Shown here: piece by piece, positions 1,949 to 35,362 of the stretch
Layout: each line of letters opens with the position of its first letter
Numbering within the stretch: the first letter of the stretch is position 1
IMG/VR virus record: IMGVR_UViG_3300027973_000015
Coordinates: 1-35,362 of that record
Source: a virus
Direction: 5' to 3' (one strand)
DNA: 35,362 nt
The notes under the pieces: generated by a model
What the model saw: the letters and a program-made list of their open reading frames with translations, nothing else
What the model was told of the DNA's origin: nothing
Databases searched by the model: none
Translations under genes and position numbers: made by a program

Positions 1949-1982
1949 CAAATATACAAACTTTTCACAATCCACAATCAAA
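1949..1982 (-). promoter_or_regulatory. Bacteroidota-type promoter for the minus-strand hydrolase unit
   Basis: Read on the minus strand, TTTG (1982-1979) is followed after 22 bp by TATATTTG (1956-1949), a perfect match to the Bacteroidota -7 box TAnnTTTG. The start codon of the first minus gene (1917) is 31 bases further. This predicts expression by the unmodified host polymerase, independent of the capsid genes. Confidence 0.65.
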
Positions 1983-2004: not shown

Positions 2005-2050
2005 AATGATAAGCGGTAAATATCAATGATGAATGGTAAATTTAAATGAT
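2005..2050. repeat. Three direct repeats with 20-bp period between divergent units
   Basis: The hexamer AATGAT occurs at 2005-2010, 2025-2030 and 2045-2050, exactly 20 bp apart. The first two units also share GGTAAA at 2015-2020 and 2035-2040, and a further GGTAAA is at 1985-1990. A period of two helical turns places the units on one DNA face, as expected of an operator. The array sits between the minus-strand promoter and the scaffold gene. Confidence 0.55.
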
Positions 2051-14934: not shown

Positions 14935-14961
14935 TTGCAACAAGGTTACAAAAATAAATTT
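14935..14961. repeat. 27-bp repeat, copy 1, operator-like dyad
   Basis: The 27 bases are identical to 24707-24733. They begin with a near-perfect dyad TTGCAAC-AAG-GTTACAA (one mismatch in 7-bp arms). In both places the repeat lies just upstream of a TAnnTTTG promoter. Confidence 0.8.
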
Positions 14962-14967
14962 ATTACT

Positions 14968-15001
14968 TTTGCACTTTGTATTGTGTAATGTGTTATCTTT
15001 G
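14968..15001 (+). promoter_or_regulatory. Early promoter, Bacteroidota type
   Basis: TTTG (14968-14971), 22-bp spacer, TATCTTTG (14994-15001). It would drive the recombination and replication genes from 15019. A second TAnnTTTG match (TACTTTTG, 14964-14971) overlaps the -33 element and might be an alternative start. Confidence 0.7.
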
Positions 15002-15018
15002 TTGAAACAAAACACAAT

Positions 15019-15225
15019 ATGACACATTTAACCACCTACCAAATGTTCCAATTCGAGAGATACGGGAACATATTAATTGACGGAGATAGGAGTACTACAA
15101 ACCCTTATGACCCTGCTCTATTGCCTAAAAACTACGACTACGAAGATGACGATTACACGTTTACTCGTTGGGTTGAAAACAATGCAGAACAAGAACTTTT
15201 AAAAACCGAACAATATGAAGATTGA
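15019..15225 (+). CDS. Hypothetical early protein
   Basis: A 68-residue acidic protein (MTHLTTYQMFQFERYGNIL), rich in Asp, Glu and Tyr. It is the first gene after the early promoter, the usual place for small host-takeover proteins. No domain recognised. It overlaps the next gene by 11 bases. Confidence 0.75.
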   Translation: MTHLTTYQMFQFERYGNILIDGDRSTTNPYDPALLPKNYDYEDDDYTFTRWVENNAEQELLKTEQYED

Positions 15226-15414: not shown

Positions 15415-15948
15415 ATGAGCCTAATTAAAATACAACAGGAATTAAAAGCACCTAAAAATCAATTCAATGCTTTTGCTAAATACAAGTACCGAAGTGCAGA
15501 AGATATTATTGAAGCTGCAAAACCTATCTGCCATAAGTACGGCTACGCTTTAATGTTAAGCGATGAGGTCGTAGAAGTAGGCGGCAGGGTTTATGTAAAG
15601 GCTACTGCTTGTCTAAGTAACTTAGAAGATAACATTACTTGCACAGGGTTAGCGCGTGAAGAGGAAAACAAAAAAGGTATGGACGCTTCACAGATTACCG
15701 GAGCAGCAAGTAGCTACGCCAGGAAGTACGCCCTTAACGGACTCTTTGCAATAGACGATACCAAAGATGCAGATGCTACTAACGAACATAAAGACGAAGT
15801 AAGCGAAGGACAAAAGGCATTCTTAATTGAAGCACTTGATAAGACAAAGTTTACTGAAGATCAAAAAGTAAAGGCTGCTTTGAAAATCAATGCTATCAAG
15901 ACCTTAGACGAGTTTAACAAGATTAAAGAAACAATAAAGAAAAGCTAA
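15415..15948 (+). CDS. erf: ERF-family single-strand DNA annealing protein
   Basis: A 177-residue recombinase. Family marks are the N-terminal YKYRSAEDIIEAAKPI (about 24-39), strands around VYVKATACLS, and the strongly conserved GMDASQITGAASSYARKYAL with the following LFAIDDTKDAD. ERF proteins form rings that anneal complementary single strands in phage recombination and genome circularisation. The C-terminal part (about 125-177) is a separate helical module. It probably works with the exonuclease and with the small SSB-like protein at 16316. Confidence 0.92.
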   Translation: MSLIKIQQELKAPKNQFNAFAKYKYRSAEDIIEAAKPICHKYGYALMLSDEVVEVGGRVYVKATACLSNLEDNITCTGLAREEENKKGMDASQITGAASSYARKYALNGLFAIDDTKDADATNEHKDEVSEGQKAFLIEALDKTKFTEDQKVKAALKINAIKTLDEFNKIKETIKKS

Positions 15949-16187
15949 TGAGAGACTTGCTACCATTTGAAAGGCAGATGCTCCTGGCAGAAGTATACCA
16001 CTACGCTTGGTATAACGAAGAGGCATACGCTGACTTATTAACATTCATAGAAAAGTATCAAACCATTTTAGACAAACCAGTATTTTTAACCCATATCAAT
16101 AACAATGACACAGAAACAACAAATCTTGAACCACTTGCTTTCGGGCAAAACCTTGACACCGATCCAGGCATTAACGAAGTACAATAG
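15948..16187 (+). CDS. Hypothetical protein
   Basis: A 79-residue acidic protein with a helical, aromatic N-terminal half (MRDLLPFERQMLLAEVYHYAWYNEEAY). It shares a base with the ERF stop. Its last 83 bases overlap the next gene in another frame, so its C-terminal third may be little constrained. Confidence 0.6.
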   Translation: MRDLLPFERQMLLAEVYHYAWYNEEAYADLLTFIEKYQTILDKPVFLTHINNNDTETTNLEPLAFGQNLDTDPGINEVQ

Positions 16188-16314
16188 CCTTCGACTTGCA
16201 GCCGTAGTGTTTGAATTAAAACGCAAAGGCTACAAAGTACAAACGGAACTAATTAACGTAGGTACAAAAAAACAAAGTAAATTAGTAGCTAAATATTCAA
16301 TTAAAATCAAATAA
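16105..16314 (+). CDS. Helix-turn-helix protein (HTH_39-like)
   Basis: A 69-residue basic DNA-binding protein. The winged-helix pattern is KQQILNHLLSGKTLTPIQAL, then RLAAVVFELKRKGYKVQTE, then a basic beta tail. It matches the small helix-turn-helix proteins common in phages, which act as regulators or replication accessory factors. It overlaps the previous gene and is followed one base later by the next. Confidence 0.75.
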   Translation: MTQKQQILNHLLSGKTLTPIQALTKYNSLRLAAVVFELKRKGYKVQTELINVGTKKQSKLVAKYSIKIK

Positions 16315-16512: not shown

Positions 16513-16941
16513 ATGCTAACGAGAAAAAGAGATATATCAATTAGACAGTTAAAGGACTTGTATTTTGTGCAACGTAACACACATTTACAGCTACACGAAA
16601 TGATGATGCAATTAGGTTTATTAGGCATAGAAGATAACGAGCCTCTTGGGTTAGACATTGGCGCGAGAACTATTGTTAAATTGGTAGATCAAGAGTTTGA
16701 GTGCGATGTTCTGGTTAAGGATAGAAGTTTGAAAACAACGTTTGGACGCAAAGCTGCGGCTTACTTACTAAGGCGGTACACCAAATTAAGCCTTAAGGAG
16801 ATAAGCCAATACACAGGAACAAGCGACCATACGACTGCTATCCATAACATTAAACAAGCAAATAACCTAATAGAAACTGAGGACTGGTTTAAAACCAAGC
16901 TAAAAAAACTTTGTTTAAAATTGGAACTTAAAGAAATTTAG
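16513..16941 (+). CDS. DnaA domain IV-like replication protein
   Basis: A 142-residue protein. The C-terminal part (about 70-140) reads as the DNA-binding domain of the initiator DnaA: TFGRKAAAYLLRRYTKLSLKE, then ISQYTGTSDHTTAIHNI, where DHTT is the signature that contacts the DnaA box. The AAA+ ATPase domain is absent. The N-terminal 65 residues are unassigned. It may mark the phage origin or compete with host DnaA. It lies between recombination genes and the replisome organizer. Confidence 0.8.
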   Translation: MLTRKRDISIRQLKDLYFVQRNTHLQLHEMMMQLGLLGIEDNEPLGLDIGARTIVKLVDQEFECDVLVKDRSLKTTFGRKAAAYLLRRYTKLSLKEISQYTGTSDHTTAIHNIKQANNLIETEDWFKTKLKKLCLKLELKEI

Positions 16942-18400: not shown

Positions 18401-18706
18401 ATGACCGCAAACGAATTAACCAAAGAAGCAATCCAAACCCTAAATAAAAACGGGTGCTTTGTATGGCGCAATAACAATTTAGCGGTTAGGGGCAGAACCT
18501 TCATAGGCTTAAAGGGAGTTCCAGATGTAGTAGGCTTTCACACACAAACAGGAGTAGCGGTTTACTGCGAGACAAAAGCCATAGGCGATAAGTTAAGCAG
18601 CTATCAAATAGCATTTTTAAACTTAGCAAAGACGGCAAATTGTTTTTGTTACATAGCTACCGAAGAGAACGGCAAACTAATCTTAAAGGACTATGAACAA
18701 GAATAG
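18401..18706 (+). CDS. VRR-NUC domain nuclease
   Basis: A 101-residue single-domain PD-(D/E)XK nuclease. The core is KGVPDVVGF (D42), then VYCETKAIGD (E57, K59), then SSYQIAFL (Q69), the family order for VRR-NUC. Stand-alone phage members act on branched DNA such as Holliday junctions. Its stop region overlaps the next gene by 14 bases. Confidence 0.88.
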   Translation: MTANELTKEAIQTLNKNGCFVWRNNNLAVRGRTFIGLKGVPDVVGFHTQTGVAVYCETKAIGDKLSSYQIAFLNLAKTANCFCYIATEENGKLILKDYEQE

Positions 18707-23137: not shown

Positions 23138-23540
23138 GTTTAAACTTATAGAGACACCAGAGTTAATGCTTCAATACTTTACCGAGTACGCAGAACATTG
23201 TAAAAGCAATCCAATTAAAGTACACGACTTCGTAGGTAAAGATGGAGACGAAGTTTACAGATTAAGAGAGCGACCTTTGACGATAGAAGGCTTTGAGAAT
23301 TATTGTTATAATCAAGGAGTTATAGGCGATTTAAGTCATTACTTTGCTAATACAAATAATGCTTACGCAGATTTTTTAACTATCTGTTCGCGTATTAGGA
23401 AATCAATTAGGCAAGACCAAATCGAAGGGGGTATGGCAGGGGTATATAATCCAAGCATAACTCAGCGATTGAATAGCTTAGTAGAAAAGTCCGAGAACAA
23501 ACACGAAGTAAGTGAGATTAAAATAACTTACGATAAGTAA
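23130..23540 (+). CDS. terS: Terminase small subunit
   Basis: A 136-residue protein. Typical marks are the N-terminal LIETPELMLQYFTEYAEHCK, the ERPLTIEGFENYC stretch (helix-turn-helix-like) and the C-terminal EGGMAGVYNPSITQRLNSL, seen in small subunits of the gp3-like family. It recognises the packaging site and controls the large subunit, which starts at its last base. Confidence 0.82.
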   Translation: MGRFKLIETPELMLQYFTEYAEHCKSNPIKVHDFVGKDGDEVYRLRERPLTIEGFENYCYNQGVIGDLSHYFANTNNAYADFLTICSRIRKSIRQDQIEGGMAGVYNPSITQRLNSLVEKSENKHEVSEIKITYDK

Positions 23541-24706
23541 TGCAGACAGTAGGCTTGAAATTACATAACCCACACCCTGCGCAAAAGCAAGTAATTGACT
23601 GCGATAGTAGGTTTATTGTAATGATGGCAGGGAGAAGATTTGGCAAGTCCTTGATTAGCCAAACGATTAGCATAGACACGGCAGTAAATAAAAAGCGAGT
23701 AGCTTACATTACACCTACTTACCAATTAGGTAAAATATTCTTTAAAGATATTATAGACCTATTACCTTTAGAGATATACTCTAAAAATGAAAGCGACCTG
23801 GTTATAACTTTTATAACGGGTGGCAGCATACGTTTCTTTACAGGCGAAAGGTTAGATAATCTTCGTGGTTTAAAGTTTCACTTGGCAGTAATAGACGAAG
23901 CGTCTTACATACCTAACTTAGAAGACGGGTGGCTTAATTCAATAAGACCTACCTTAACGGACTATAAGGGTAAAGCTATATTCTTAAGCACCCCTAAAGG
24001 TAAAAACTACTTCTTTAGTTTGTTCAGCAAAGCCGAACCCGATTGGCAAAGCTTTAAGTTTACGACATACGATAACCCTTACATAGACCCTAACGAAATA
24101 GACGATGCAAGGAAGCAACTGCCCGAAGTTGTGTTTGAGCAGGAGTATATGGCAAACCCGGCTGAGAACGCGGCAAACCCTTTTGGTAGCCAACACATAC
24201 GCAAGTGCTTACACCCTGTTACAACTATGCCGGTAGTGGCTTATGGAATTGATCTAGCCAAGTCGGTCGATTGGACAGTTATCATAGGTTTAGACGAAGA
24301 CGGGAATGTGGCTTATTTTGACCGCTTTCAAATGGATTGGCACAATACTAAGCAAACTATCCTTAGGCTGCCTAAATGCCCTATCCTTGTCGATTCTACG
24401 GGGGTTGGAGACCCGATACTTGAAGACCTACAAAGAGAAGGGGTAATGATACAAGGCTTAAAGTTTACAAGTTCAAGTAAGCAGCAGCTTATGGAAGGCT
24501 TACAGGCTGCCATACATCAAGGCAAGATTGGTTACCCTGAGGGAATAATCAGCCAGGAGTTAGAAGTATTTGAGTATCAATACACGGCAACGGGGGTAAA
24601 GTACTCAGCACCTTCAGGCTTTCACGATGACGCAGTTGTGGGGTTGGCTTTGGCTTGGCAGAACTTTAGCCTTAAACGAGGTACGGGTAGGTATGCCTTC
24701 CTATAA
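23540..24706 (+). CDS. terL: Terminase large subunit
   Basis: A 388-residue packaging motor and nuclease. ATPase: Walker A AGRRFGKS (31-37), Walker B LAVIDEAS (D119, E120), coupling motif FLSTPKG (149-154). Nuclease (RNase H fold): GIDLAKS (D238), LVDSTGVGD (D285) and FHDDAVVGLA (D363/D364). It is somewhat short but complete. It pumps DNA through the portal encoded at 4687. Confidence 0.95.
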   Translation: MQTVGLKLHNPHPAQKQVIDCDSRFIVMMAGRRFGKSLISQTISIDTAVNKKRVAYITPTYQLGKIFFKDIIDLLPLEIYSKNESDLVITFITGGSIRFFTGERLDNLRGLKFHLAVIDEASYIPNLEDGWLNSIRPTLTDYKGKAIFLSTPKGKNYFFSLFSKAEPDWQSFKFTTYDNPYIDPNEIDDARKQLPEVVFEQEYMANPAENAANPFGSQHIRKCLHPVTTMPVVAYGIDLAKSVDWTVIIGLDEDGNVAYFDRFQMDWHNTKQTILRLPKCPILVDSTGVGDPILEDLQREGVMIQGLKFTSSSKQQLMEGLQAAIHQGKIGYPEGIISQELEVFEYQYTATGVKYSAPSGFHDDAVVGLALAWQNFSLKRGTGRYAFL

Positions 24707-24733
24707 TTGCAACAAGGTTACAAAAATAAATTT
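24707..24733. repeat. 27-bp repeat, copy 2, operator-like dyad
   Basis: Identical to 14935-14961. The dyad TTGCAAC-AAG-GTTACAA occupies 24707-24723. The repeat starts just after the terL stop and its end overlaps the -33 element of the promoter below. Confidence 0.8.
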
Positions 24734-24761
24734 GGTGGATTGTGTAAAACTTGTATATTTG
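24731..24761 (+). promoter_or_regulatory. Bacteroidota-type promoter for the accessory genes
   Basis: TTTG (24731-24734), 19-bp spacer, TATATTTG (24754-24761): a full match to the consensus. It would transcribe the small genes from 24790 onward. The overlap of the 27-bp repeat with the -33 box suggests repression or activation by a protein bound there. Confidence 0.75.
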
Positions 24762-24789: not shown

Positions 24790-24876
24790 ATGAAAAAAGA
24801 AACCGCACAACTTTTAGCAGTATTTTTAGTAGCTTGTTACCTCATAGGGCAACTTCAAGACATCTACTCAAAATGA
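24790..24876 (+). CDS. Very small membrane protein
   Basis: A 28-residue ORF (MKKETAQLLAVFLVACYLIG) with one hydrophobic helix, 28 bases after the promoter box, with ATGA overlap to the next ORF. Short, so only moderately certain. Confidence 0.5.
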   Translation: MKKETAQLLAVFLVACYLIGQLQDIYSK

Positions 24877-25521: not shown

Positions 25522-25723
25522 TTAAAAAAATAACCTACAAACCAGAAACGATATAAAATTAGAAACATAATTCTAATTATTTAAAAACAAGCTATTTAAA
25601 AACAATTATTCAATCAAATTAGAAATATAATTCCAATTTAAAAATTTAGTATTTATACTTAATATTAATTAAATAAATTAAATTAACTTTCTACTTTATT
25701 AAAAAAATTAAAACAAATAATCT
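25522..25723. other. Very AT-rich intergenic segment with two dyads and direct repeats
   Basis: A 202-bp gap with almost no G or C. It has a perfect dyad AATTAGAA-N6-TTCTAATT (25557-25578) and a related dyad with one change, AATTAGAA-N6-TTCCAATT (25617-25638), exactly 60 bp apart. Between them is a 13-bp direct repeat TATTTAAAAACAA (25578-25590, 25593-25605), 15 bp apart. No gene. Candidate operator or origin region. Confidence 0.6.
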
Positions 25724-25960
25724 ATGAAAACAGCAATGCAAGAATTAATTGAAAAATTAGATTATTCAATTAAAAACTCAGAAGATGATTATAAAATAAA
25801 TTTTGAATGGATAAAATTTCACGCTGAAATATTACTTGAAAAAGAAAAAGAGCAGATAATAGATGCTAATAGACAAGGTAGATGTAATGATTGTCCATTT
25901 ATGTATTCAAATGAAGATGCAGAAAAATACTACAACCAAACCTATAACCAAAACAAATAA
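25724..25960 (+). CDS. Tandem-family small protein, member 1
   Basis: A 78-residue acidic helical protein: MKTAMQELIEKLDYSI, then LLEKEKEQIIDANRQG, then CNDCPF and a YYNQTYNQNK end. The same N-terminal, central and C-terminal motifs recur in the genes at 25964 and 26246. This family is seen widely in Bacteroidetes genomes and phages; function unknown. Each copy has a near-identical start context (ATAAYCTATGAAAAC). Confidence 0.7.
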   Translation: MKTAMQELIEKLDYSIKNSEDDYKINFEWIKFHAEILLEKEKEQIIDANRQGRCNDCPFMYSNEDAEKYYNQTYNQNK

Positions 25961-25972
25961 CCTATGAAAACA
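25922..25972 (+). repeat. 51-bp direct repeat, copy 1
   Basis: This spans the end of the first family gene, the gap and the start of the second. It matches 26429-26479 with one difference in 51 bases. It supports gene duplication in tandem. Confidence 0.85.
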
Positions 25973-26242
25973 ACAATGCAACAAGCAATTGAATATTTAA
26001 AATCATTCAATTTAGAAGCCTCAGCAATTATACTTGAAGATAAGTTTCTTGAGAAAGAAAGAGAGCAGATGATAAACTTTGGGTATGAATGTAGGGACTT
26101 TAAAAGTATTTTACCACAAGATAGATTTGAAGCAACCTATAACCAAAATAAATTACTTAAAAACTACATTAATAGTATAAAAGTAGACCCTATTAAAAGT
26201 CAAGTAACAACAACTGGTGTATGGACTCCAAAAACAAATTAA
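25964..26242 (+). CDS. Tandem-family small protein, member 2 (divergent)
   Basis: A 92-residue protein: MKTTMQQAIEYLKSFN, FLEKEREQMINFGYE, then a shortened form of the YNQNK motif and an added tail (QVTTTGVWTPKTN). It is the most diverged of the three copies. Confidence 0.7.
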   Translation: MKTTMQQAIEYLKSFNLEASAIILEDKFLEKEREQMINFGYECRDFKSILPQDRFEATYNQNKLLKNYINSIKVDPIKSQVTTTGVWTPKTN

Positions 26243-26245
26243 CCT

Positions 26246-26467
26246 ATGAAAACCGCAATGCAAGAATTAATTGAATTTATAGAAAGCACTAATAATACCC
26301 CATATGTAAATTTAACAATTATGGATAAAGCTAAAAAACTGCTTGAAAAAGAAAAAGAGCAAACTATAAGTTTTGCAAATGAATGGTATGAAGAGTATTG
26401 TGAAGGATTAGGTGATTTTAAAACACCAGAAAAATACTATAACCAAACCTATAACCAAAACAAATAA
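26246..26467 (+). CDS. Tandem-family small protein, member 3
   Basis: A 73-residue protein: MKTAMQELIEFIESTNN, KLLEKEKEQTISFANE, ending EKYYNQTYNQNK as in member 1. The middle differs, which indicates an old duplication with the ends kept or exchanged. Confidence 0.7.
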   Translation: MKTAMQELIEFIESTNNTPYVNLTIMDKAKKLLEKEKEQTISFANEWYEEYCEGLGDFKTPEKYYNQTYNQNK

Positions 26468-26479
26468 CCTATGAAAACA
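26429..26479 (+). repeat. 51-bp direct repeat, copy 2
   Basis: See 25922-25972. The two copies are 507 bp apart and could recombine, removing or adding one gene pair. Confidence 0.85.
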
Positions 26480-26692
26480 GAATTAAATGTATTTCCAAGC
26501 TATACACTTATTGCAACTAAAAACAATAATGAAGATTGTAAATGTTATGTAGTAGTATCTTGCAGTAAAAATGAAGGATATTATTTTAATAATTCTTATG
26601 TATTTAAAAATAGAATGGATGCTGAAAAGTATATTGAACAATTAGATAGTCAAGATACTTTTGATATAGTAGAATTAAACTTTATTGATTAA
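26471..26692 (+). CDS. Hypothetical protein
   Basis: A 73-residue protein (MKTELNVFPSYTLIATKNNN) with strands and a helix (NRMDAEKYIEQLD). It shares the start context of the tandem family but not its sequence. Unknown role. Confidence 0.65.
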   Translation: MKTELNVFPSYTLIATKNNNEDCKCYVVVSCSKNEGYYFNNSYVFKNRMDAEKYIEQLDSQDTFDIVELNFID

Positions 26693-26705
26693 AAACAAAT
26701 AACCT

Positions 26706-26792
26706 ATGACTATTATATTAATAATTACAATATGGGAACTACTAAAGAAGATAGTAAAGACAATCGTTTACAAGCACTTAAATTCAAAATAG
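26706..26792 (+). CDS. Very small hydrophobic peptide (alternative to the next ORF)
   Basis: A 28-residue ORF (MTIILIITIWELLKKIVKTI) that follows the same AAATAACCTATG start context as its neighbours. It overlaps the 26732 ORF in another frame. One or both may be translated. Confidence 0.4.
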   Translation: MTIILIITIWELLKKIVKTIVYKHLNSK

Positions 26793-32299: not shown

Positions 32300-34537
32300 A
32301 TGGCAGAAGAGAACGTAGGTATAAATATAACAGTAGGCGGTAACCAAGACCAAGCTTTAGGCTCTTTAAAAAAGCAGTTAAAAGAAGCGACCGCTGAAGT
32401 ACAAGAATTGTCTGATAAGTTTGGCGCAACGTCTGAGCAAGCCGTAAACGCAGCAAAAAAAGCAGCAGAACTTAAAGACCAAATCGGAGACTCTAAAGCA
32501 TTGATTGATGCCTTTAACCCAGATACAAAGTTTAAAGCGTTTTCACAAACACTTGGAGCAGTTGCCGGTGGCTTCTCTGCAGTACAAGGAGCATTAGGTT
32601 TAGTTGGTGTAGAAGGTAAAGATTTTGAAAAAACATTGCTTAAAGTACAATCAGCACTTGCACTATCTCAAGGACTTGAACAATTAGGGGACTTAGGCGA
32701 TGCGTTTAATAATGTAAAAACTGTAGCCGTAAATGGTTTTAAAGCAATCAAAACTGCTATTGGTTCTACAGGTATAGGACTTATAGTAGTTGCTTTAGGT
32801 GCAATCTATGCTTATTGGGATGACATTAAGGAAGTAGTAAGCGGAGTTAGTGATGAGCAAAAGAAACTAAACCAAAGTACAAATGATAATTTAAAGGCTC
32901 AACAAGAAAAGTTAAGTGCAATAGATGGGCAGTCTAATCAGCTAAGACTTCAAGGCAAAAGCGAAAGGGATATTTTAAATTTAAAGATAAAGCAAACTGA
33001 CCAAACTATTAAAGATGCTATAATTAGCATACAAAATGCAAAGAATACAAAGGCGGCTCAAGTAGCAGCAGCACAAAGAAACTTTGAATTTACAAAAGGT
33101 CTTTTAAACCTTTTATCATTACCAGTAACTGCGGTACTTGCAGCAGCAGACGCACTCGGTACGGCATTGGGTAAAAATTATGGATTGCTTGATAAATATA
33201 CAGGTGGTCTTGCAAAGTTTGCGTTTGACCCTGCACAAACTGCAAAAGATGGTGACGCTACAATTAAAGAAGCAGAAGCTACTTTAGAAAAATTAAAAGA
33301 AGGTAGAGCAACTGCTCAAATAGGTTTACAAAATTTAGATAAGCAAGGAGCGTCAGATGCTCAGGCAATAAGAAAACAAAAAGAGGAAGCTGAAAAAGAT
33401 GCACAAGCAATTTTAGCAGAAGCTAATAAAAAATTAAAAACAGAACAAGAACAAGAGTTATTAAATATAACACAAGCATATGCTGAAAAGAAAAAGAAGT
33501 TAGAATTAGCAGGAGTAAAAGACAATGGAGATTTAGCAGCAGCAGAACAAAAAGAAAGACAAGTTGTATTAGATAAATATACTAAAGAAGCAAAAGATTT
33601 AAAAGATAAAAATGATAAAGAGGCAAAAGAAAAAGAGGCTGCATTTCAAAAAGAATTAAATAAAATTACTCTTGAAACAAAGTTAGAAGGTATTGTAAAC
33701 GAAAACGCAAAGGCAAGAGAACAATTACTTGCAAGTTATGTGCAACAAAGATTAGATATAGATGTTAATGAAAATTTAACTGCTGAACAAAAGAGTTCTT
33801 TAAAATTAGCATTAGCAACTAAAGAAAAACAAGCACTTGATGCATTACAATTAACAGAAGATAAAAGATTAGCTGCTAAAGAAATAACTGACTTAGATGC
33901 AAGAATAGCTAAAAATAATGCTGATTTAGAAATAGAAAAGAATTTATTAAATGAAAAAGATATACTTCTCAAAGATGCGTATGCTAAAAAATTAATAACA
34001 GAAGAGCAATTTACCGCAGCAATAGATGCTAATGCAAAGGCAAGAACTGAGATAGATAAGCAAGAGACAGAAGCTAAAGTTAGAAACGCAGAAATCGCTT
34101 CTCAGTTATTAAACACTATTGCTGATGTACTTGGTAAAAATACTGCGGCAGGAAAAGTAGCAGCTATTGCTTCAACTACGATTGATACTTATTTAGGCGC
34201 ACAAAAAGCATATACTTCTCAGCTAATACCTGGAGACCCTTCGTCTCCTATTAGAGCCGCTATTGCTGCCGGTATTGCAGTTGTAGGTGGTCTTAAAAAC
34301 GTTAAGTCAATATTAGCAGTAAAAACTCCAGGAGGCGGAGGCGGAGGAAGTGTGCCAAGTATATCAGCAGCAGCACCAATAGCACCCCCACAACCTCAAG
34401 CACAAACGACAACTTTAGATAATAGAAGTATAAACGCAATAGGAAATCAAACAACGAGGGCTTATGTAGTGGAAAGCGATGTAACGGGTAGTCAACAACG
34501 TATGGCAGCTATTCAGCAAAGAGCAAGGTTCGGTTAA
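32300..34537 (+). CDS. Tape measure protein
   Basis: A 745-residue protein. It has an N-terminal helical region (LGSLKKQLKEATAEVQELSD), hydrophobic segments at about 88-108 and 155-172 (STGIGLIVVALGAIYAYW), then a very long Lys/Glu/Ala coiled coil (about 350-600), and a C-terminal hydrophobic region with AAGKVAAIASTTIDTYLGAQ and a Gly-rich stretch (GGGGGGS). This is the plan of the ruler that sets tail length. By the usual 0.15 nm per residue rule it predicts a tail of about 110 nm. It is unusual that it follows the tail-tip genes instead of preceding them. Confidence 0.88.
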   Translation: MAEENVGINITVGGNQDQALGSLKKQLKEATAEVQELSDKFGATSEQAVNAAKKAAELKDQIGDSKALIDAFNPDTKFKAFSQTLGAVAGGFSAVQGALGLVGVEGKDFEKTLLKVQSALALSQGLEQLGDLGDAFNNVKTVAVNGFKAIKTAIGSTGIGLIVVALGAIYAYWDDIKEVVSGVSDEQKKLNQSTNDNLKAQQEKLSAIDGQSNQLRLQGKSERDILNLKIKQTDQTIKDAIISIQNAKNTKAAQVAAAQRNFEFTKGLLNLLSLPVTAVLAAADALGTALGKNYGLLDKYTGGLAKFAFDPAQTAKDGDATIKEAEATLEKLKEGRATAQIGLQNLDKQGASDAQAIRKQKEEAEKDAQAILAEANKKLKTEQEQELLNITQAYAEKKKKLELAGVKDNGDLAAAEQKERQVVLDKYTKEAKDLKDKNDKEAKEKEAAFQKELNKITLETKLEGIVNENAKAREQLLASYVQQRLDIDVNENLTAEQKSSLKLALATKEKQALDALQLTEDKRLAAKEITDLDARIAKNNADLEIEKNLLNEKDILLKDAYAKKLITEEQFTAAIDANAKARTEIDKQETEAKVRNAEIASQLLNTIADVLGKNTAAGKVAAIASTTIDTYLGAQKAYTSQLIPGDPSSPIRAAIAAGIAVVGGLKNVKSILAVKTPGGGGGGSVPSISAAAPIAPPQPQAQTTTLDNRSINAIGNQTTRAYVVESDVTGSQQRMAAIQQRARFG

Positions 34538-34572: not shown

Positions 34573-35362
34573 ATGGACTTACCTGTTTATTTATTAGACA
34601 TTAGCGAGGATATGAATGACGATGCCGAGGTCGATTATGTGGCACTCGTTGACAAACCTGCTATACAAAAGAACTGGAATGCATTTAAAAATCAACAACG
34701 TTTTGAAGTGGTTAGCGAAGATAAGCGTATTATTTCTGGACCTCTTATGCTTGCTGACGTACCTATTTTTAGGAGCGATGCTACTTATGGCGATTACTAT
34801 GTTGTCTTTTCTAAAGATACTATTTTTAAGATTGCGCAAAAGTTTTTCAAAAGAGGCTACCAATCAAACGTAAACTTGATGCACTCTCCTGACAAACAAG
34901 TCGAAGGTGTTACTATGTTTGAAAGCTTTATTACAGACGAAAGCAGAGGCATACAACCAATGAAAGGTTTTGAAGATGCACCTGACGGGTCGTGGTTTGG
35001 TTCTTTTAAAGTAGACAACGAAGGGGTGTGGAACGATGTTAAAGAGGGTAAATTCAAAGGCTTTAGTGTAGAGGGATTGTTTACTTACAAGACAAAGCCT
35101 AACAAAGAACAAGAGTTAATGAATCAAGTATATAGAATACTTGAGCAAGTTAATTTTGGCGGACCTGGTAGTGGTAGAAGGTCAGAAGGTGGTGGGGACA
35201 AAGAAACAACTGTAAGCGCTCCTACTTCAAAAATAAATGTACAAAAAGAAGATGTAGATAATGTAATTGAAAAAGCAAAGCAATCTGGGGGGGAAATAGA
35301 TAAATTAGGAAAAGATTTAGCTTCAAAATATGGTGGAGTTGTTACACCTATAAACTATAAAT
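34573..35362 (+). CDS. Capsid maturation protease (XkdF-like), N-terminal part of a fusion with a RelA/SpoT-like synthetase
   Basis: The gene starts at ATG 34573 (MDLPVYLLDI) and continues across the join to 597, making 419 residues. Residues 1-175 have the plan of XkdF-type prohead serine proteases: YVALVDKPAIQKNW (about 22-35), VNLMHSPDKQVEG with probable catalytic His104, and FKGFSVEGLF with probable nucleophile Ser165. These enzymes cleave the scaffold and mature the capsid from inside the procapsid. Residues 196-207 (GGPGSGRRSEGG) form a Gly-rich linker common after phage head domains. From about 240 the protein becomes the synthetase domain described at 1-597. Self-cleavage in the linker could leave the synthetase free inside the head. 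The last 127 bases repeat 1-127. Confidence 0.85.
   Translation, partial: MDLPVYLLDISEDMNDDAEVDYVALVDKPAIQKNWNAFKNQQRFEVVSEDKRIISGPLMLADVPIFRSDATYGDYYVVFSKDTIFKIAQKFFKRGYQSNVNLMHSPDKQVEGVTMFESFITDESRGIQPMKGFEDAPDGSWFGSFKVDNEGVWNDVKEGKFKGFSVEGLFTYKTKPNKEQELMNQVYRILEQVNFGGPGSGRRSEGGGDKETTVSAPTSKINVQKEDVDNVIEKAKQSGGEIDKLGKDLASKYGGVVTPINYK
35236..35362. repeat. Terminal direct repeat, right copy (circular-contig overlap)
   Basis: Exact copy of 1-127. Removing one copy gives a circular sequence of 35235 bp. Confidence 0.95.

Follow-up and report, generated by a model that had tools for sequence, protein, structure and literature searches.

Host control of lytic phage genes through the site of a nutrient regulator has been described in the cyanophages, whose Pho boxes are bound by the PhoB protein of the host, as demonstrated by EMSA (PMC10976474). 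This host PhoB control of cyanophage genes is the closest known case to the phage locus analyzed here, since in both a site of a host nutrient regulator, a putative one in the present phage, lies before genes of a lytic phage, including, in the cyanophages, the gene for DNA polymerase. The cyanophage case concerns phosphate, a two-component activator and scattered genes, whereas in the present phage the nutrient would be zinc, the regulator would belong to the Fur family, and both forward promoters would be involved. A second point of comparison is the predicted ZUR site ATGCAACNNNGTTGCAT of Desulfovibrio, reported by Rodionov in 2004 upstream of znuABC-zur (PMC545781), which is the same 17-bp palindrome as the type of the phage dyad. 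The Desulfovibrio site serves a bacterial operon in another phylum, while the dyad described here belongs to promoters of a phage and precedes their -33 elements. Sites found in this study at FUR, ZigA/COG0523, TonB and MerC genes of Bacteroidota share the dyad, the phylum and the TAnnTTTG -7 box with the phage, but these bacterial dyads mostly overlap the core promoter (gap 5-19), whereas the gap in the phage group is 30-52. Class I activator sites, such as those of CRP, are found at about -61.5 or -71.5; like the phage dyad they lie upstream on one face of the helix and move in one-turn steps, although Zur, the presumed binder of the phage dyad, is normally a repressor.

The window, by which we mean the whole 35,362-nucleotide stretch of viral DNA analyzed, has identical ends (positions 1-127 and 35236-35362), so the contig is probably either a circular map of about 35.2 kb or a terminally redundant complete genome. 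Its terminase is at most 34% identical to those of cultured phages among the best matches listed, and its portal is about 25% identical to that of Nonlabens and Cellulophaga phages. Nearly all of the genes run in one direction. Exact copies of a 27-bp repeat, TTGCAACAAGGTTACAAAAATAAATTT, lie on the plus strand at 14935-14961 (site A) and 24707-24733 (site B). Site A heads a block that includes the ERF annealase and a DnaA domain IV-like protein and runs on towards the terminase; site B comes after the terminase stop and heads small genes and then tail genes, and the tape measure protein gene is at 32300. The features of the window used below are as follows.

1949..1982, minus strand: third canonical promoter, with a direct-repeat module upstream in place of the dyad
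2007..2040, minus strand: two repeats in direct orientation, TTTACCATTCATCA and TTTACCGCTTATCA (period 20), on the upstream side of the minus promoter
14935..14961, plus strand: copy A of the 27-bp repeat (dyad and A/T-rich tail AAATAAATTT)
14935..14951, plus strand: site A, dyad of the Zur type (TTGCAAC-AAG-GTTACAA) centred on 14943, at about -63 relative to the predicted TSS
14964..14971, plus strand: alternative upstream -7-like box of promoter A, TACTTTTG, gap 12 from the dyad
14968..14971, plus strand: -33 element of promoter A, TTTG, spacer 22
14994..15001, plus strand: -7 element of promoter A, TATCTTTG, 42 bp from the dyad end
15019..15225, plus strand: opening gene of the replication-side block that follows site A, without family match
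15415..15948, plus strand: ERF-family single-strand annealing protein (Pfam ERF, 2.2e-36; phrog_155)
16105..16314, plus strand: wHTH protein (HTH_39), the binder proposed by the preliminary description
16513-16941: protein with DnaA domain IV (Bac_DnaA_C, 2.9e-11)
23540..24706, plus strand: large terminase, its stop codon directly adjoining copy B
24707..24733, plus strand: copy B of the 27-bp repeat
24707..24723, plus strand: site B, dyad of the Zur type (TTGCAAC-AAG-GTTACAA) centred on 24715, at about -51 relative to the predicted TSS
24727-24734, plus strand: alternative -7-like box of promoter B, TAAATTTG, gap 3
24731..24734, plus strand: -33 element of promoter B, TTTG, spacer 19, also the end of the alternative -7-like box
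24754..24761, plus strand: -7 element of promoter B, TATATTTG, 30 bp from the dyad end
24790..24876, plus strand: 28-aa ORF, the first after promoter B, followed by small genes and then tail genes

A scan of the window for the canonical promoter of Bacteroidota, TTTG-N17-23-TAnnTTTG, gave three intergenic matches only, namely promoters A and B and the minus-strand match at 1949-1982, besides four further matches within genes. Promoters A and B are the only two such intergenic matches on the plus strand, and both carry the 27-bp repeat, so that a Zur-type dyad is located at each. The core of the repeat is a 7-3-7 dyad, TTGCAAC-N3-GTTRCAA, and compared with the Zur-associated palindrome TTGCAAC-N3-GTTGCAA the window's form has a single arm mismatch, while most site A relatives have none or one. 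The preliminary description had reported exact copies at these positions, a 7-3-7 dyad with one mismatch within them, a TAnnTTTG promoter at each copy, and offsets from the end of the 27-mer to the -7 box of 32 bp (A) and 20 bp (B); a check of positions and coordinates bears out all of these. A chance origin of the repeat was rejected, since the longest exact repeat in 60 dinucleotide shuffles of the window reached at most 18 bp (mean 15.6), and since a scan allowing up to three mismatches found three dyad matches, two of them exact, against 0.27 expected. With the 127-bp identical ends set aside, it is the second-longest exact direct repeat of the window; the longest internal one (39 bp) falls among the small paralogous genes that form an array at 25710-26709, downstream of promoter B, and whose starts are repeated (AAAACAAATAACCTATGAAAACA). 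The protein at 16513-16941, which has weak relatives in G301 and G303, is possibly a phage initiator or regulator.

Bacterial and archaeal genomes (257 billion bases) were searched with the pattern TTGCAACNNNGTTRCAAAAATA, which is rare there and occurred in 69 stretches, 12 of them with the fully symmetric form TATTTTTGCAACNNNGTTGCAAAAATA; many of the neighboring genes are concerned with zinc. By record title 58 of the 69 were Bacteroidota, and the others included Verrucomicrobia, Clostridia, Pandoraea and Arcobacter. Among 57 neighboring proteins, hand-picked as plausible genes with near-duplicates and loci without a plausible neighbor left out, so that counts refer to proteins and not to the 69 loci, there were 12 FUR, 15 TonB plug, 5 CobW, 3 DUF4625 and 2 MerC proteins, along with 2 metal P-type ATPases and 1 ZnuA (in an Arcobacter record). 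The five CobW (COG0523) GTPases match the NCBIfam zinc metallochaperone ZigA (best 8e-172). The palindrome is present in genomes of Emticicia and Runella. A search of 295 genomes, taken from the class of an Emticicia genome, with TTGCAACNNNGTTGCAA found 22 sites in 19 genomes and none for the reversed control; the Emticicia genome at the center of this set had itself been found through a motif match, and without it there were 21 sites in 18 of 294 genomes. The remaining 276 of the 295 have no exact site, and at least three of the sites fall within long, unrelated reading frames (L384, L385, L386). The second set of neighbors, taken from this search (24 proteins), contained 4 FUR, 4 MerC, 3 DUF4625 and 2 TonB plug proteins. 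A second dyad was present within 70 bp of 17 of 80 bacterial dyads (control, 0). Judged by its neighbor genes and by the absence of the reversed control from all 295 genomes, the palindrome is a mark of genes for zinc homeostasis in bacteria, and since it also agrees with the site predicted in 2004, we take the phage dyad to be an operator of the Zur type.

No report of a Bacteroidota Zur motif or of phage Zur boxes was found in the titles and abstract openings of the open-access papers that literature searches listed, no Bacteroidota Zur motif was found in the available parts of PMC3087516 and PMC2770081, and neither 'zur' nor 'zinc' occurs in the main text of PMC9723704. Next to Zur-type dyads in Bacteroidota, genes for DUF4625 lipoproteins and for proteins of the MerC family are met repeatedly (for example at L336 and L397), and our data suggest that these proteins have a zinc role.

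Relatives of the window were collected as the best 80 terminase loci and the best 80 ERF loci in searches, and after removal of identical regions 81 site A and 83 site B regions were left. The first 24 bases of the repeat occur exactly in at least 88 IMG/VR stretches, and each of the matches listed corresponds to one of the two window sites (A in 14 cases, B in 74). A loosened dyad pattern is matched by 77 of the 81 distinct site A regions, the commonest forms being ATGCAACATTGTTGCAA (n=22) and ATGCAACAATGTTGCAA (n=13); the exceptions are L218, which has a degenerate dyad, and L188, L194 and L221, which are without one. In an alignment of the 77 rows of 81 that were selected by this dyad pattern, the arm columns are 88-100% conserved, except for the outermost 5' position (56%), while the 3-bp spacer is variable. 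The tail AAAAATAA is 97-100% conserved and belongs to the invariant unit along with the dyad, and the columns upstream, -14 to -2, are 38-69% conserved. A further inverted repeat of a GTAC type (such as GTACGTATTTGCGTAC) lies just upstream of the site A dyad in many relatives (L230, for example) and is also present in L188 and L221, both without a dyad.

An inverted repeat just 3' of the terminase stop might also be an RNA hairpin or a terminator at the end of the upstream transcript. This we regard as barely credible and have rejected, since the RNA folds no better than shuffled sequences (z +0.46 and +0.62), giving no stable fold, and since the changes in the arms are one-sided, with no compensated pair in the 77 rows of relatives.

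Site B is less uniform. The dyad is present in 47 of the 83 regions, two direct repeats TTACCGYTYATC (period 20) are present in 23, as a module of the kind found at 2007-2040 in the window, and 13 fit neither pattern, several of the latter containing variants of the direct repeats. Since 36 of the 83 regions are without a dyad, it is evidently replaceable at this site. The direct-repeat module, which presumably resembles LytTR/BtsR sites, keeps a distance of 52-53 bp to the -7 box in 19 of these 23 regions. A strict form of its pattern (at most one mismatch) was found in none of 198 genomes of the class, and the idea that the module is a host site was set aside. In a search from a 68% relative, limited to site B and to the best 80 loci, which overlap the 83, the dyad was present in 15 of 38 distinct regions above 75% terminase identity and in 1 of 26 below it, which indicates that a dyad at B is characteristic of the nearer relatives. 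Thirteen other distinct loci contain both sites; eight have no dyad at B, and in the five with dyads at both sites the two are never identical. This last result suggests that a copying event lies behind the perfect match between the window's two copies.

Such copying might be taken to mean that the repeat is a recombination linker, that is, a conserved border sequence for module exchange with no part in regulation. The phage does have an ERF annealase, copy B adjoins the terminase stop, which is a module border, and the lack of A/B identity in the five other distinct pairs makes it probable that one copy was transferred. A linker of this kind, however, would leave unpredicted the variable spacer between conserved arms, the helical spacing to the -7 box and the presence of the palindrome at zinc genes, and we consider it highly improbable as an explanation.

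The position of the dyad relative to the promoter differs between bacteria and this phage group. Of 166 dyad sides examined at the bacterial loci, 46 have TAnnTTTG within 82 bp, and for 34 of these 46 the first such box follows the dyad at a distance of 5-19 bp, where about 2 would be expected; the dyad there covers the -33/-7 region, the usual place of a repressor. In the phage group the best -33/-7 pair leaves the dyad upstream of its -33 element, and the spacer of this pair is 22 at site A in 68 of 77 regions and 19 at site B in 40 of 45. The gap from the dyad end to the -7 box at site A is 52 (n=48), 42 (25) or 41 (1), and at site B 30 (n=27), 41 (13), 52 (3), 40 (1) or 51 (1), with two gaps undetermined across A and B. 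A 68% terminase relative (L236) has a gap of 52, and the less related L277, L283 and L290 have gaps of 43, 42 and 31, L290 having a further box at gap 3. The dyad thus keeps to a fixed face of the helix at a variable distance upstream of -33, with gaps of 30-31, 40-43 and 51-52 bp.

A Rayleigh-type test of the gaps gave R 0.93 with a simulated p of 1.5e-5 for nine arrangements, which were hand-chosen and not all independent, four of them (L236, L277, L283, L290) coming from phages found via the dyad; R was 0.89 and p 0.01 with n=5, and the null was a simple one, with gaps uniform from 25 to 55. Searches of IMG/VR for out-of-phase gaps returned 5 stretches at 33-38 bp and 13 at 44-49 bp. None of these matched the window ERF, terminase, portal or capsid, the only match to 12 window proteins was to the wHTH protein in one stretch (L485, 31%), and most look like coding sequence or chance matches. 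One stretch from another phage (L498, gap 49) is promoter-like and may be an exception, which would break the spacing rule. If transcription is taken to start 12 bp downstream of the first base of TAnnTTTG, as in the F. psychrophilum map (PMC9723704), the dyad centers are predicted at about -51, -62/-63 or -73. Gaps of 30, 40-42 and 51-52 bp, about one helical turn per step, suggest an activator-like placement, and phased spacing of this kind favors a protein that contacts RNA polymerase from upstream.

The dyad is also present in phages that are unrelated to the window or related to it only distantly. Counting the window, 18 viral records with the dyad contained 44 sites with at most two mismatches against one for the control, although 17 of the 18 records had been picked via the dyad and at least one site in each is due to this selection. 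At the same threshold G316 has nine dyads and G302, G309 and G313 have four each; G310 (L514) looks like an inverted duplication, and its four sites may be two. The stretches L548/L549 (G316), L552/L555 (G302), L550/L551 (G309), L516 and L519 are from Bacteroidota-type phages with 3-9 Zur-type dyads. In L519 the dyad lies 5-6 bp before TAnnTTTG ahead of the genes for portal (phrog_12, 8e-34) and head maturation protease (phrog_80, 1.5e-45) and of two other genes, and gaps of 5-7 are found ahead of the protease genes of G302, L500 and L518 and the small terminase gene of G316. Several late structural genes of these phages have the dyad between -33 and -7 (gap 5-7), and some other genes have it upstream (gap 31-43). 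In G309 it lies at gap 5 ahead of an HNH endonuclease gene and also ahead of the ERF gene, there with no TAnnTTTG in reach.

The preliminary description had proposed that one DNA-binding protein acts at two unlinked promoters. This part of the proposal is supported, since the arms are conserved while upstream sequence varies, and since the dyad is restricted in where it can stand with respect to the promoter. It had also named the wHTH protein at 16105 as the candidate binder, which we rejected: in a search that included the window, no homologue turned up in seven further phage records with the dyad, of which some are fragments, and the palindrome marks zinc (Zur) genes in bacteria. We instead consider it probable that both forward-strand promoters carry operators for the zinc regulator Zur of the host. 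Weighing against this are the 276 class genomes with no exact site, the relatives that have no dyad (36 of 83 regions at site B and 3-4 of 81 at site A), the conservation of the tail together with the dyad, and the up to nine dyads in single genomes of unrelated phages. No match to the FUR profile was found in the window at E<=10, in a search that was positive in 14 of 14 control genomes.

The dyads might alternatively be operators of a phage-encoded regulator that shares the DNA specificity of Zur, with no involvement of the host protein. The many dyads per genome in unrelated phages would fit such a regulator, and the window encodes three DNA-binding candidates, the wHTH protein at 16105, the DnaA domain IV-like protein at 16513 and the product of the gene at 18693, which has a weak match to a repressor family. 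None of the three is common to all of the dyad-bearing phages tested, some of which are fragments: at E<0.01 in the seven other records, 16513 matches only G301 and G303 and 18693 only G301, and no candidate was found beyond these two. FUR was above the cut-off in none of 17 dyad-bearing records, G303 having one sub-threshold match (E 0.001). The lack of a common DNA-binding candidate and of FUR above cut-off in these phages fits a host protein, and the motif already marks zinc genes in bacterial genomes. We therefore think a phage-encoded regulator unlikely.

If the binder is host Zur, Zn-Zur would bind sites A and B on phage entry, and since it is normally present when phage DNA arrives, both promoters would read the zinc status of the host from the first minute. 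The direction of the effect is less certain. Zur is normally a repressor, and direct activation by it is uncommon. With the box upstream of -33 on one helix face, however, bound Zur would more likely help RNA polymerase in a class-I-like manner than block it, and we propose, with less certainty than for binding itself, that it acts upward at both A and B. The two sites would respond in the same direction. The preliminary description expected that the different offsets might have different effects, but the difference of 12 bp is about one helical turn and the gaps of relatives (30, 40-42, 51-52) move in the same steps, so that the same effect is predicted at both sites.

The same operators could be sites of repression, with zinc-replete cells holding the promoters down until zinc drops or until phage DNA titrates Zur. 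This is the best explanation with the opposite sign, its odds overlapping with those of activation, and we regard it as a real possibility, though short of probable. It agrees with the bacterial loci, where the dyad lies over the core promoter and 34 of 46 -7 boxes are 5-19 bp away from it, and with other phages in which a dyad at gap 5-8 precedes portal, head maturation protease and small terminase genes. In the window, overlap of the dyad with the core promoter arises only if the upstream TAnnTTTG (gap 12 at A, 3 at B) is used; if this nearer box is the real -7 box, the geometry is repressor-like and repression is then as likely. The -33/-7 pair with the good spacer leaves the dyad upstream of -33 in most relatives, as given above. 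Moreover, the downstream -7 box is present in 77 of 77 site A dyad regions, compared to 60 of 77 for an upstream TAnnTTTG (gap 12 or 22), and the box at gap 3 is present in 26 of 45 site B regions. Finally, the site B dyad alternates with the direct-repeat module at its fixed distance from the -7 box, which also argues against repression.

A more speculative scheme would combine both signs, and we offer it as a doubtful one. Unrelated lineages of Bacteroidota phages might use the zinc repressor of the host in such a way that Zn-Zur assists early promoters that have an upstream, phased box (gap 30-52) and keeps late structural promoters silent when their box is between -33 and -7 (gap 5-8). Replicating DNA with 2 to 9 boxes would then titrate Zur, so that late genes are turned on and zinc uptake by the host is induced.

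Through these comparisons a repeat that looked anonymous receives an explanation, a Zur-type motif is supplied for the Bacteroidota, and a candidate protein and signal, host Zur and zinc, can be named that may govern the lytic genes of a group of Bacteroidota phages which is common but uncultured. If activation is correct, the phage would employ a repressor of its host in the position of an activator. If the proposal is true, the zinc status of the host would set the pace or the outcome of infection, as phosphate does for some cyanophages.
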